NCBI GenBank assembly: GCA_026400755.1
Contig: JAPLOM010000005.1
Span: 1 to 60,274 of the forward strand
Origin: Alphaproteobacteria bacterium
GTDB taxonomy: Bacteria > Pseudomonadota > Alphaproteobacteria > CADEGL01
Direction: 5' to 3'
Length of the DNA stretch: 60,274 nt
Made by a program: the position numbers and the translations under genes. The notes under the pieces are model-generated. The model searched no databases. It worked only from the letters and a program-made list of their open reading frames with translations, and had not been told where the DNA came from. Positions 8,501-33,982 of the stretch are shown piece after piece (positions within the stretch are counted from its first letter, which is position 1; every line of letters starts with the position of its first letter).

Positions 8501-10075
8501 ATAGCGCTCGGACAACACGGCCAAGGGCGAATGGTCGCCCATGGAGCCGATGGGCTCCTTGCCCTCCTCGGCCATGGGCTGCAGGACAAGCTCCAGATCC
8601 TCGAGCGACCAGCCGGCCGCGTGCTGGCGGCGGCGGATTTCCTCGGGCGCGAACTCCAGCGGCTCTTCCGCGTCGTTGCGGATCAGGCTGTCGATCTGCC
8701 GGATGTTCCCGGTCCAATCGCCGAAGGGCTGCTGGGACGCCATCCAGTCCTTCAGCTCGCGGTCGCGATAGAGCTTACCTTCGGCCAGGTTGACGGCGAT
8801 CATCTGGCCCGGACCGACACGGCCCTTCTCGACGATGTCGGATTCCTCGAGCCGCACCATGCCCGTCTCGGAGCCGACGACCAGCAAGCCGTCGCGCGTC
8901 AGCGTGTAGCGCAAGGGACGCAGGCCGTTGCGGTCCATGCCGGCCAGCGCCCAGACGCCGCCGAAAGCCGCGATCGCGGCCGGGCCGTCCCACGGCTCCA
9001 TCACCGCGTTGGCATAGGCGTAGAGATCCTTGTGCGCCTGGGGGATCGGCGATTCCGCCGTCCACGCCTCGGGCATCAGCATGGCCTTCACGAGCGGGAG
9101 GGAGCGCAAGGACCGCGCCATCACCTCGAACACCGCGTCGAGCGCGGCCGAGTCCGACCCGCCCGGCTGGATCAGCGGCTTCAGGTCGTCCATGTATTCG
9201 CCGAAGAACTCGTGCGCCATCCGCGGCTCGTGCGCCTTCATCCAATTCACGTTGCCGAGCAGCGTGTTGATCTCGCCGTTGTGCGCGATGACGCGGAACG
9301 GCTGGGCCAACGGCCAGGTCGGGAACGTGTTGGTCGAATAGCGCTGGTGATAGATGGCGAAGTTCGAGACGAAGCGTTCGTCGAGCAGGTCGGGATAGAA
9401 GGCCGTCAACTGCTCGGCCAGGAACATGCCCTTGTAGATGACCGAGCGGCAGGACAAGGAGCAGATGTAGAACTCCTTGATGGTCTCCTGCAGCGCCGCC
9501 TTCTCGATGCGGCGGCGGATGATGTAGAGGTCGCGCTCGAACAGCCGGTCGGTCACGCCGCGGTTGTTGTAGATGATGATCTGCTCGATCTCGGGCCGCG
9601 AGGCGTTGGCCTTCTCGCCGGTGACGCCCACGTTGATGGGCACCTGGCGCCAGCCATAGATGCGGTAACCGAAATTCAGGATCTCGGCTTCGACGATGCA
9701 GCGGCAGCGTTCCTGCGCAGCCAGGTCGGTGCGCGGCAGGAAGATCATGCCGACGGCCAGGCGGCCTTCGCGCGGCTCGTGGCCCATCCGGCGCACGTGC
9801 TCTTTATAAAAATCCTGCGGGATCTGGACGTGGATGCCCGCGCCGTCGCCGGTCTTGCCGTCGGCATCGACCGCGCCGCGATGCCACAGGCATTTCAACG
9901 CCGTGATGCCGGCCTCGACCACCGAGCGGCGCGGCTTGCCGTCGACCGCGACCACGAGGCCGACGCCGCAGGAATCGCGTTCCTCGGCGGGATCGTAAAG
10001 ACCGTGCTTGGCCAGATGGTCGGCGTTCGCGTGCCATTCCGCGACGAAGCGCTCGCCCTCGTTGCGAATCGTCAT
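5534..10075 (-). CDS. gltB: Glutamate synthase [NADPH] large subunit
   Basis: The 1513-residue large subunit of NADPH-GOGAT, which makes two glutamates from glutamine and 2-oxoglutarate. The N-terminal glutaminase uses Cys36 (ERDSCGVG) after removal of a propeptide. The synthase domain binds FMN and shows GGMSHGSLSLEAH, GEGGEGAERF and GAKPGEGGQ. The 3Fe-4S cluster cysteines are in CHANTCPVGIC. A glycine-rich beta-helix domain closes the protein. The ATG at 10075 follows the gltD stop by 4 bases; a longer start at 10105 would overlap gltD. Electrons come from GltD, encoded just upstream. Confidence 0.97.
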   Translation of the reverse strand: MTIRNEGERFVAEWHANADHLAKHGLYDPAEERDSCGVGLVVAVDGKPRRSVVEAGITALKCLWHRGAVDADGKTGDGAGIHVQIPQDFYKEHVRRMGHEPREGRLAVGMIFLPRTDLAAQERCRCIVEAEILNFGYRIYGWRQVPINVGVTGEKANASRPEIEQIIIYNNRGVTDRLFERDLYIIRRRIEKAALQETIKEFYICSLSCRSVIYKGMFLAEQLTAFYPDLLDERFVSNFAIYHQRYSTNTFPTWPLAQPFRVIAHNGEINTLLGNVNWMKAHEPRMAHEFFGEYMDDLKPLIQPGGSDSAALDAVFEVMARSLRSLPLVKAMLMPEAWTAESPIPQAHKDLYAYANAVMEPWDGPAAIAAFGGVWALAGMDRNGLRPLRYTLTRDGLLVVGSETGMVRLEESDIVEKGRVGPGQMIAVNLAEGKLYRDRELKDWMASQQPFGDWTGNIRQIDSLIRNDAEEPLEFAPEEIRRRQHAAGWSLEDLELVLQPMAEEGKEPIGSMGDHSPLAVLSERYRGLHHFFRQNFSQVTNPAIDSLRERQVMSLKTRLGNLGNILAESETQCRILQLDSPVLSNVEFDAMRDYMGDTAVEIDCTFDADGGEDALRTALERARRESEEAVRNGAEHVILSDKAQSASRASIPMILATGAVHSHLVRRSLRTYTSINVRAGECMDVHYAAVLIGVGATTVNAYLAQETLADRHRRGLLPGRTLKDCIRAYKNAVDQGLLKIMSKMGISVISSYRGGYNFEAMGLSRTLVAEFFPGMPSRISGIGLSGIQRKALELHRRAFGLDATPLPIGGFYRYRRGGETHAFEGHLIHLLQAAVSSDSYSAFKKYSAAVREMPPTQLRDLWEFAPDRQAISVDEVESITEIRKRFMTGGMSHGSLSLEAHETLGIAMNRIGAKSDSGEGGEGAERFKPRENGDNANSSIKQIASGRFGVTTEYLNNCREIEIKVSQGAKPGEGGQLMGFKVSEEIARLRHATPGVSLISPPPHHDIYSIEDLSQLIYDLKQANPVASVCVKLVSKSGIGTVTAGVAKAKADVILISGHTGGTGASPLSSIKFAGTPWEIGLSEANQVLTLNRLRHRVKLRTDGGIKTGRDVVIAAMLGAEGFGVGTAALVAMGCLLVRQCHANTCPVGICSQDTELRKKFTGTPEKVVNLFSFIAEEVREILASLGFRSLNEIIGRSDLLFQVNRGSEYLDDLDLNPLLAQADPGEHARYCTIEGRNEVPDTLDAQMIVDASPALEGGEKMQLTYNIRNTHRAIGTRLSALITRRYGMRALPAGHITVRLRGSAGQSLGAFLVQGVSLEVFGDANDYVGKGLSGGTIVLRPMVSAAFRANENTIIGNTVLYGATAGRLFAAGQAGERFAVRNSGAEAVVEGCGANGCEYMTGGTVAILGSVGDNFGAGMTGGMAFVYDADGMFEHRINPDTVLAQRIETPHWDEVCRALIAEHAARTGSNLAAALLNAWSEERGRFWQIVPREMVGRLAHPTALPPAERQRA

Positions 10076-31136: not shown

Positions 31137-32416
31137 GCGCGGGCAGCGACGTTCTGCTCGAACGTCTCTCGCGTCTGCATCCCAAGATCATCGACCTCTC
31201 GCTCGAACGCATCGAGCGCCTGCTGGCGCGCCTCGGCCATCCTGAACGCAACCTGCCACCCGTGGTCCACGTGGCGGGCACCAACGGCAAGGGTTCGACC
31301 GTGGCCTATCTGCGCGCCATCGCAGAGGTCGCCGGTTTGCGCGCCCATGCCTACACCTCGCCGCACCTGGTGCGGTTCCACGAGCGCATCCGCCTGGCCG
31401 GTGCGCTGATCGGCGAGGACGCGCTGTCCGCGCTTCTCGACGAATGCGAGCGCGCGAACGGCGATGCACCGATCACGTTCTTCGAGGTGACCACGGCCGC
31501 CGCCTTCCTGGCCTTCTCCCGCACGACGGCCGATCTTCTGCTGCTGGAGGTGGGTCTGGGCGGACGGCTGGACGCAACCAACGTGATCGCGGCGCCCGCC
31601 TTGTCCATCATCACGCCCATCTCCATCGACCACGTCCAGTTCCTGGGCGAAACGCTGAGCGAAATCGCGGGCGAGAAGGCCGGCATTCTGAAGCCGGGCG
31701 TTCCGTGCGTGATGGGGCCGCAGCCGCCTGAAGCGGTCGCCGCGATCGAAAAGCGCGCGAAAGAGATCGGCGCACCGCTTCTGCGCCACGGCGTGGAATG
31801 GCATGTCGACGTGACCGGCAACGGCTTCGTCTATCGCGGCAAGGCGCGGCGGATCGACCTGCCCCACCCCGTCCTGCCCGGCGTGCACCAGATCGCGAAT
31901 GCGGGCATGGCCGTGGCCGCCGTGGATGCCTTGGCCGCGCGCTTCGCCATCGGCGAGGATGCGATCCGCGCGGGCCTGCAAACCGCCGAATGGCCTGCGC
32001 GGCTGCAACGTCTGGTACGCGGACCCTTGATCGAACTCCTGCCGACGGGATGGGAGCTTTGGCTCGACGGCGGGCACAACCCCGCGGCCGGCGAAGCCCT
32101 GGCCGAGACGGCGCGGGGTTGGCGCGACCGGCCGTTGCATCTGGTCGTCGGCATGATCAACACCAAGGACCTGGCGGGCTTCCTGCGCCCACTGGCCCCC
32201 CACGCCGCGTCGCTGACCGCCCTGACCATTCCCGGCAATCGGGCCGCCGTGAAGCCGGAAGAGATCGCCGCCGCCGGGCAGGCGCTCGGTCTCGCATCCG
32301 GCATCGCGCCCGATGCCGGCGCCGCGTTGACACATATCGCGACGGGCGCGCCCGCGCGCGTCCTCATCTGCGGTTCGCTTTATCTGGCAGGAAAGGTTTT
32401 AGAAACAAGCGATTGA
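31133..32416 (+). CDS. folC: Bifunctional folylpolyglutamate synthase/dihydrofolate synthase
   Basis: A 427-residue ATP-dependent ligase that makes dihydrofolate from dihydropteroate and glutamate and lengthens the glutamate tail. The P-loop is VAGTNGKGSTVAYL, followed by YTSPHLVRFHERI, the metal/ATP motif LLLEVGLGGRLDATN, and the C-terminal WLDGGHNPAAG typical of Mur ligases. GTG at 31133 overlaps the accD stop. It ends the co-directional block; the next gene, on the other strand, is of quite different base composition. Confidence 0.95.
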   Translation: MSAGSDVLLERLSRLHPKIIDLSLERIERLLARLGHPERNLPPVVHVAGTNGKGSTVAYLRAIAEVAGLRAHAYTSPHLVRFHERIRLAGALIGEDALSALLDECERANGDAPITFFEVTTAAAFLAFSRTTADLLLLEVGLGGRLDATNVIAAPALSIITPISIDHVQFLGETLSEIAGEKAGILKPGVPCVMGPQPPEAVAAIEKRAKEIGAPLLRHGVEWHVDVTGNGFVYRGKARRIDLPHPVLPGVHQIANAGMAVAAVDALAARFAIGEDAIRAGLQTAEWPARLQRLVRGPLIELLPTGWELWLDGGHNPAAGEALAETARGWRDRPLHLVVGMINTKDLAGFLRPLAPHAASLTALTIPGNRAAVKPEEIAAAGQALGLASGIAPDAGAALTHIATGAPARVLICGSLYLAGKVLETSD

Positions 32417-33142
32417 TTAACGAGAGCCTACTTGGCTTCGTTCTCATTAGCGGTCAGCACAGAGGCAAGCATTTCATCTGACATCAAAAAATCCTTACTC
32501 AATACATCGCCGGCAGATGCATTTGCCGCAGCAAGGGTCTTTGTTGCCTCAATGACCTTGTTTACAGATTCTTGGTACTCGCTCTTCGCGGTTGAAAGCT
32601 AAGTCATTGATCTAGTGAGCGATTTGATAGCGTAGGAATATCCGTATCCACCACGCTCCGCGCTTGCCTCTTCCGTTGCTCTCGTTACTGCCTTTAAAGC
32701 AACAGTTAAATTTAGCTGCTTTCTAAATTTACCAACTAGAGATCGCAAATACTCCTGCCCTGCTTCCATATATTTTATGCAGGGCTCTACTTGCTTTTGA
32801 GTATCGCGCGTGGAAATCGTCTGGACGTCTAATATGCGTTTGCCGATCTCAGAAATGTCACCGTCCAATTTTTCAAATAGCTCCCGATAGGTAATATTTG
32901 CTTGCTGATCCACCTAATGTTTTGAAGCGTTAGTAAGCCTCAGAGAAACATTCTTAACGTTTGGAGCAATCGTTTCTATGAACTTGCGTTCTTGATATTC
33001 CTGATATCCGTAATACCCGCCTACGATCAAAATTATCGCAAATAAGAGCAACAGAACTTTCTTCATATTCCTCCTCCCCCAAGGATTATTTTAGTCATCG
33101 TAAAATATTCTCGATCATTCCAGTCAAGATTTCCTACGGAAA
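32417..33142. other. Low-GC island between folC and cspA
   Basis: Base composition falls sharply here, with many A/T runs and rare codons, against strongly GC-rich sequence on both sides. The stretch holds one minus-strand frame (32428-33066) and its leader. No integrase, direct repeat or inverted repeat was found at its edges. It interrupts otherwise conserved alphaproteobacterial gene order after folC, so acquisition by transfer is the simplest reading. Confidence 0.7.
32428..33066 (-). pseudogene. Foreign membrane-anchored helical protein gene with two in-frame TAG codons
   Basis: One frame of 213 codons runs from an ATG with a strong ribosome site (GGAGGAGG about 5-12 bases upstream) to TAG at 32428-32430. 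It is broken only by TAG at 32914-32916 (codon 51) and at 32599-32601 (codon 156); no frameshift is needed. The product would begin MKKVLLLLFAIILIVGGYYG, a signal anchor or membrane helix. It would continue as charged, mostly helical segments (YRELFEKLDGDISEIGKRI; VNKVIEATKTLAAA). I do not recognise a family. TAG is an ordinary stop in neighbouring genes, so nonsense decay is the default explanation. Confidence 0.6.
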
Positions 33143-33174
33143 ATAAAAAAGCCCGGCGCTTGCGCGCCGGGCTT
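33141..33174 (-). terminator. Rho-independent terminator of cspA
   Basis: Perfect 11-bp arms AAGCCCGGCGC (33149-33159) and GCGCCGGGCTT (33164-33174) enclose loop TTGC. On the minus strand the hairpin is followed by a T-run (TTTTTTATTT), placed 29 bases after the cspA stop. Confidence 0.9.
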
Positions 33175-33202
33175 CTCTGTCCGCGATGCGGACTCGTCTT
33201 GC

Positions 33203-33406
33203 TTAGACGACCTTCAGGTTCGCAGCCTTGGTCTTGCCGCGATCGCTGACGATGTCGTAGCTGACCTGTTGGCCTTCGTTCAAACCACGCAGACCCGCAG
33301 CCTCAACCGCACTGATGTGCACGAACACATCGGCACCGCCCTCGCTGGGCTGGATGAAGCCGAAGCCCTTCTGCGAGTTGAACCACTTAACCGTACCGTT
33401 CGCCAC
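33203..33406 (-). CDS. Cold-shock protein, CspA family
   Basis: A 67-residue single OB-fold RNA chaperone. RNP1-type GFGFIQP and RNP2-type VFVHISA are both present, and the N-terminus MANGTVKWFNSQKGFGF is canonical. GTG at 33406 is the start: GGAGA lies 5 bases upstream, and a longer TTG start would include that ribosome site. A strong terminator follows. The 250 bases upstream, back to trxA, hold no gene and are AT-richer (TATATAAAT near 33540), so a long regulated leader is possible but unproven. Confidence 0.92.
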   Translation of the reverse strand: MANGTVKWFNSQKGFGFIQPSEGGADVFVHISAVEAAGLRGLNEGQQVSYDIVSDRGKTKAANLKVV

Positions 33407-33628
33407 CGTAGTCTCCTTCAAAAAGCGCCTTGGCGCATATCAAGCCCCGCGACCATCACAGGGCCTGCTCCACGTTCGGCATTGCTTTTGTGAGGAGCCC
33501 AAAGGGCCTGCACGTGCGAGCCGAAAGTTTCGACCGTATTTATATACGATGCTTTTGCGGGAACGGAAACAGGGTCAAACGAAAAAGGGGATAAATCCCT
33601 ATTTACGAATTTGCGCCCCAAACAGGAA

Positions 33629-33646
33629 CCCCCGCATCAACGGGGC
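33629..33646 (-). terminator. Weak hairpin after trxA
   Basis: CCCCG (33630-33634) pairs with CGGGG (33641-33645) around loop CATCAA. On the minus strand it is followed by GTTCCTGTTT. The position, 13 bases past the trxA stop, suits a terminator, but the stem is short. Confidence 0.4.
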
Positions 33647-33658
33647 TTTGAGACCGTG

Positions 33659-33982
33659 TCAGAGAACCGACTGGACCCACTCCACCAGCTTGCTCTTGGG
33701 CAGACTGCCGACCTTCTGGGCGACCACCTGGCCGTCTTTGAAGATGAGGAGCATGGGAATGCCGCGCACGTTGTAGCGCAGCGGCGTCTTCTGGTTCTCG
33801 TCCACGTTCATCTTCGCAACCGTCAGCTTGCCGGCCAAATCCTTGGCCAGATCTTCCAGCGCGGGCGCGATCTGTTTGCAGGGGCCGCACCATTCGGCCC
33901 AAAAATCCACCAGAACCGGGCCACTGGCCTTGAGCACCTGGTTCTCGAAGGAATCGTCGGTGACGGCAGTGGTGGCGCTCAT
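33659..33982 (-). CDS. trxA: Thioredoxin
   Basis: A 107-residue thiol-disulfide oxidoreductase. The active site is WCGPC in VDFWAEWCGPCKQIAP, with the cis-proline in RGIPMLLIFKDG. The ATG at 33982 gives canonical length and has AGAAGGGAA 8 bases upstream. It lies downstream of addA on the same strand, a conserved order in alphaproteobacteria. Confidence 0.96.
   Translation of the reverse strand: MSATTAVTDDSFENQVLKASGPVLVDFWAEWCGPCKQIAPALEDLAKDLAGKLTVAKMNVDENQKTPLRYNVRGIPMLLIFKDGQVVAQKVGSLPKSKLVEWVQSVL

Follow-up and report, generated by a model that had tools for sequence, protein, structure and literature searches.

Two in-frame amber codons in a probably acquired gene between folC and trxA of an alphaproteobacterium

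Described systems and the interrupted frame

Failed horizontal transfers have been named as a large source of prokaryote pseudogenes (PMC522871). Phages that translate TAG as glutamine are also established (PMC9523058, PMC11210395). A survey of bacterial genes argues that in-frame stops are common in them and frequently revert, and it gives a case of TAG and CAG (PMC7918605). The frame examined here can be compared with all of these. It lies in a window that comprises the whole analyzed stretch of 60,274 nucleotides of contig JAPLOM010000005.1, from an Alphaproteobacteria bacterium (assembly GCA_026400755.1).

The frame occupies 32428..33066 on the minus strand and has 213 codons, including the final TAG. 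It begins with an ATG at 33066-33064, is interrupted by a TAG at codon 51 (32914..32916, minus) and again at codon 156 (32599..32601, minus), and ends in TAG at codon 213 (32428..32430, minus). No TAA or TGA occurs between the ATG and the final TAG, and TAG is the sole interrupting codon. A Shine-Dalgarno-like sequence, GGGGGAGGAGG (33070..33080, minus), is situated 3 bases upstream of the ATG. The encoded protein would start with a signal-anchor-like helix, MKKVLLLLFAIILIVGGYYGY, and continue into further helical segments. A preliminary description made from the sequence alone had reported a single 213-codon frame interrupted by TAG at codon 51 and again at codon 156, a strong ribosome site and a signal-anchor start, and these features are all borne out by the reading of the sequence and the shuffles described below. 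It had given no strand; the frame it reported is real, and it is placed here on the minus strand, from the ATG to the TAG at 32430-32428.

Each of the remaining five frames over 32428-33066 contains between 9 and 19 stops. The 720-base island was shuffled 20,000 times with its dinucleotides preserved, and all six frames were read. A run of 212 codons or longer with no more than two stops appeared in 0.65% of the shuffles, and one whose two stops were of one type in 0.2%; neither figure requires an ATG or a ribosome site. The GC content at the third codon position is 0.42, 0.42 and 0.50 in the three pieces of the frame, and is thus similar on either side of each TAG. An AlphaFold2 model was made from the single sequence with Q placed at both TAGs. 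It is mostly helical (H3-49, H60-82, H87-136, H141-185 and H197-211), and its pLDDT reaches about 94 near residue 156 and stays under 50 over almost the whole of residues 1-62. The confident model was one of five, with a mean of 66 versus 34-44 for the others. The model thus lends a measure of support to a continuous protein through codon 156 and is hardly informative on codon 51. Fold searches matched nothing but proteins with long helices of a generic kind, none of them reaching E <= 0.001. Because of the rarity of such a stretch among the shuffles (0.65%), the predicted helix through codon 156, the ribosome site and the signal-anchor-like N-terminus, 32428-33066 is one gene or former gene.

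It is scarcely credible that the three pieces are separate small genes. A 104-codon open reading frame could start from the GTG that immediately follows the first TAG (32599-32913), but that GTG has no Shine-Dalgarno-like sequence before it, and the predicted helix passes unbroken through codon 156. It is also very unlikely that errors of sequencing or assembly, or a minority strain variant, account for one or both TAGs and that the living population carries an intact gene. With its 87 contigs, the draft assembly leaves some room for error, but two independent errors that each make a TAG in one gene, with no insertion or deletion, are improbable, and the neighbouring genes are intact.

Genetic code of the host and the all-TAG pattern

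The assembly amounts to 3.36 Mb and is rated 100% complete. We found 40 tRNA genes in it (E 0.001) and read all of their anticodons, which are ordinary; none (0/40) has the CTA anticodon of a UAG-reading tRNA. A pattern search of the assembly for amber tRNAs, using an exact and narrow pattern, gave no match. Profile matches to PylS stayed under the cut-off (33 bits versus 178), as they did in most control genomes. TAG is the normal stop of the nearby genes lptB, hpf and cmk, and the family match of lptB reaches its last residue. General or dedicated decoding of TAG in the host genome is not supported. The preliminary description had taken TAG to be a normal stop nearby and a general code change to be unlikely, and both views agree with these findings. 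The suppressor tRNA that it suggested looking for is not among the 40 genes. It is possible that an atypical amber tRNA was overlooked by both searches or falls in an assembly gap.

The all-TAG pattern needs no special explanation. Of the single substitutions that turn the sense codons of this frame into stops, the fraction giving TAG is 0.43, compared to 0.40 for TAA and 0.16 for TGA. With this codon make-up, two nonsense hits would both be TAG with a probability of 0.19 and would be alike in any way with a probability of 0.38. Two identical stops in one gene are therefore weak evidence for a changed code. Decay by C-to-T changes of CAG had been offered as one reading in the preliminary description. 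The decay part of that reading is favoured, while an origin from CAG cannot be shown, there being no homologue; sense codons besides CAG are also one step from TAG.

The gene might still be in use. Near-cognate tRNAs could read through TAG at a low level and yield traces of the complete protein, or the stops could be a reversible, short-lived off state. The 213 codons without other damage and the intact ribosome site would fit such use, as would the widespread and often reversed stops of the survey cited above. With two TAGs to pass, however, the losses would multiply, and a search of the region with Rfam matched no family. The survey itself takes functional recoding not to be the case for most such stops (PMC7918605). 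We consider continued use of the gene unlikely.

Composition, neighbours and relatives

The interrupted gene is contained in a low-GC stretch of 1.24 kb bordered on the left by folC (31178..32416 as searched, plus strand, stop at 32414-32416) and on the right by trxA (33659..33982, minus). A 600-base window over the gene has 43.5% GC, versus 63-73% for windows outside 32.4-34.2 kb and about 67% for the region around it; the AT-rich island in GC-rich core sequence that had been described is thus confirmed. The adjoining stretch with the cold-shock gene and trxA is at 53-60% GC. The cold-shock protein gene (33203..33406, minus) is intact, starts with GTG and is located in the same inserted stretch. 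Between it and the interrupted gene is a terminator-like hairpin (33145..33178, minus); since this is downstream of the cold-shock gene, expression of the interrupted gene would call for a separate promoter. A promoter scan upstream of the interrupted gene gave one promoter-like site, at 33114-33085, a number not above chance expectation. From the cold-shock gene to trxA (33407-33658), there are about 250 bases without a recognised gene and with GC below the surroundings, and another terminator-like hairpin is present there at 33630-33645.

The same locus could be compared in just two relatives that have both flanks on one contig, G002 and G003, both of the same family. In each, folC and trxA are convergent. 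In G002, fewer than about 10 bases lie between them, the folC frame reaching contig position 9042 and the match to trxA starting at 9051, and in G003, there are 64 bases between the frames. Neither relative has, between folC and trxA, the stretch that holds the cold-shock gene and the interrupted gene. Gain in the present lineage is judged likelier than loss in the lineages of these two relatives because of the base composition. The cold-shock gene, also missing from that gap in the two relatives, may have arrived with the interrupted gene or separately. In another relative, G004, trxA sits at a contig end. The folC-trxA locus was not found in the draft of the genus relative G001. The best thioredoxin match in that draft (G001:C11:35325-35588) has 41% identity, compared to 70-72% in three family relatives, so the trxA locus has either diverged in G001 or is missing from its draft. 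The label "foreign" in the preliminary description stands as to atypical composition and absence of the stretch from the same place in two relatives, but no donor was found.

Homologues were sought for the translation. The family libraries Pfam, NCBIfam, PHROGs and PADLOC gave no convincing match to the interrupted protein; the Pfam matches to REX1-B and Nsp1_C are under the curated cut-off and coiled-coil-like. Plasmids, E. coli genomes at the DNA level and PDB sequences held no relative. A phage match, pAN_12, is weak (29% over 82 residues, E 0.01) and covers just 38%. Octamer scans of GTDB and IMG/VR, which detect close relatives only, gave no true relative, and the sole GTDB pattern match is an exonuclease-like frame in which the shared octamer, RILDVQTI, is a chance occurrence. 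Proteins were also searched across whole genomes: 60 relatives, 398 members of the phylum and 385 of the class gave no convincing homologue, and three further classes gave none (78 and 48 genomes of two small classes, and 369 of a different class in the same phylum); the sets overlap, and about 1,000 different genomes were covered by our estimate from the genome handles. Five of the weak genome matches, whose frames were read, seem by eye to be unrelated helical proteins that resemble OmpH/Skp, HlyD-type or AtpF-type proteins, with one phage-lysis-like or unknown protein. The database search proposed earlier was thus carried out over libraries, phages, plasmids and genomes, and it yielded no homologue with residues at the TAG sites. 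The lack of a match among the searched sets does not show that the family is absent elsewhere, and a family without a match in these libraries would matter only if intact members turn up.

These searches also bear on whether the gene, untranslatable in its present host, stems from an element such as a phage in which TAG was decoded as an amino acid, either by the element's own tRNA or by the host of that element. TAG as the only interrupting codon, and the existence of phages that read it as glutamine, would suit such a donor. Against this, the frame itself terminates in TAG, no phage, plasmid, recombinase or tRNA gene was recognised beside it, IMG/VR gave no octamer match, and the one phage match is weak and partial. 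The recoded element put forward in the preliminary description thus finds no support, and we regard such an origin as highly improbable. It is equally improbable that the gene represents a family unseen in the searched libraries, from the element of a TAG-decoding donor, caught after transfer to a standard-code bacterium.

Probable acquisition and decay compared with known systems

In the most likely reading, the interrupted frame is a gene gained by horizontal transfer that coded for a small helical protein with a membrane anchor and lost its function through two nonsense mutations, both to TAG. This decay is favoured because no suppressor tRNA is among the 40 tRNA genes, PylS is under the cut-off, TAG is a normal stop and two TAGs have a chance of 0.19. 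The gene would have entered a GC-rich host by horizontal transfer, and two nonsense mutations, each yielding TAG, would then have abolished its function. Ribosomes would stop after 50 codons and make little beyond the membrane helix. The broken gene would not yet have been deleted or frameshifted. A long-dead gene should have a frameshift or deletion, and this one has neither, which counts against decay; the lack of insertions and deletions suggests that the loss is recent. No intact relative turned up in the searched sets, and this too counts against decay.

The readthrough genes of PMC7918605 likewise have a TAG within an otherwise open frame, but their stops are shared among orthologues and selection on them was measured, whereas here there are two stops and no orthologues were found. 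The code 15 phages (PMC9523058, PMC11210395) also have TAG within an otherwise open frame. They differ from this locus, where neither a phage context nor a suppressor tRNA turned up and where the frame and nearby host genes stop at TAG. TAG recoding in the genome's own code would be marked by a CUA-anticodon tRNA or pyrrolysine machinery, neither of which was found, and TAG is an ordinary stop in it. The failed-transfer pseudogenes of PMC522871 differ in that no intact parent gene was found for the present one. A nonsense pseudogene is indicated by the one coding frame with stops, the atypical composition and the absence from two relatives. The likeness to the failed-transfer pseudogenes extends over atypical composition, restricted distribution, in-frame disablements and intact flanking core genes (PMC522871). 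The finding is ordinary in kind (PMC522871), and its significance is slight beyond annotation; it illustrates how nonsense mutation can remove an accessory gene that was probably acquired.
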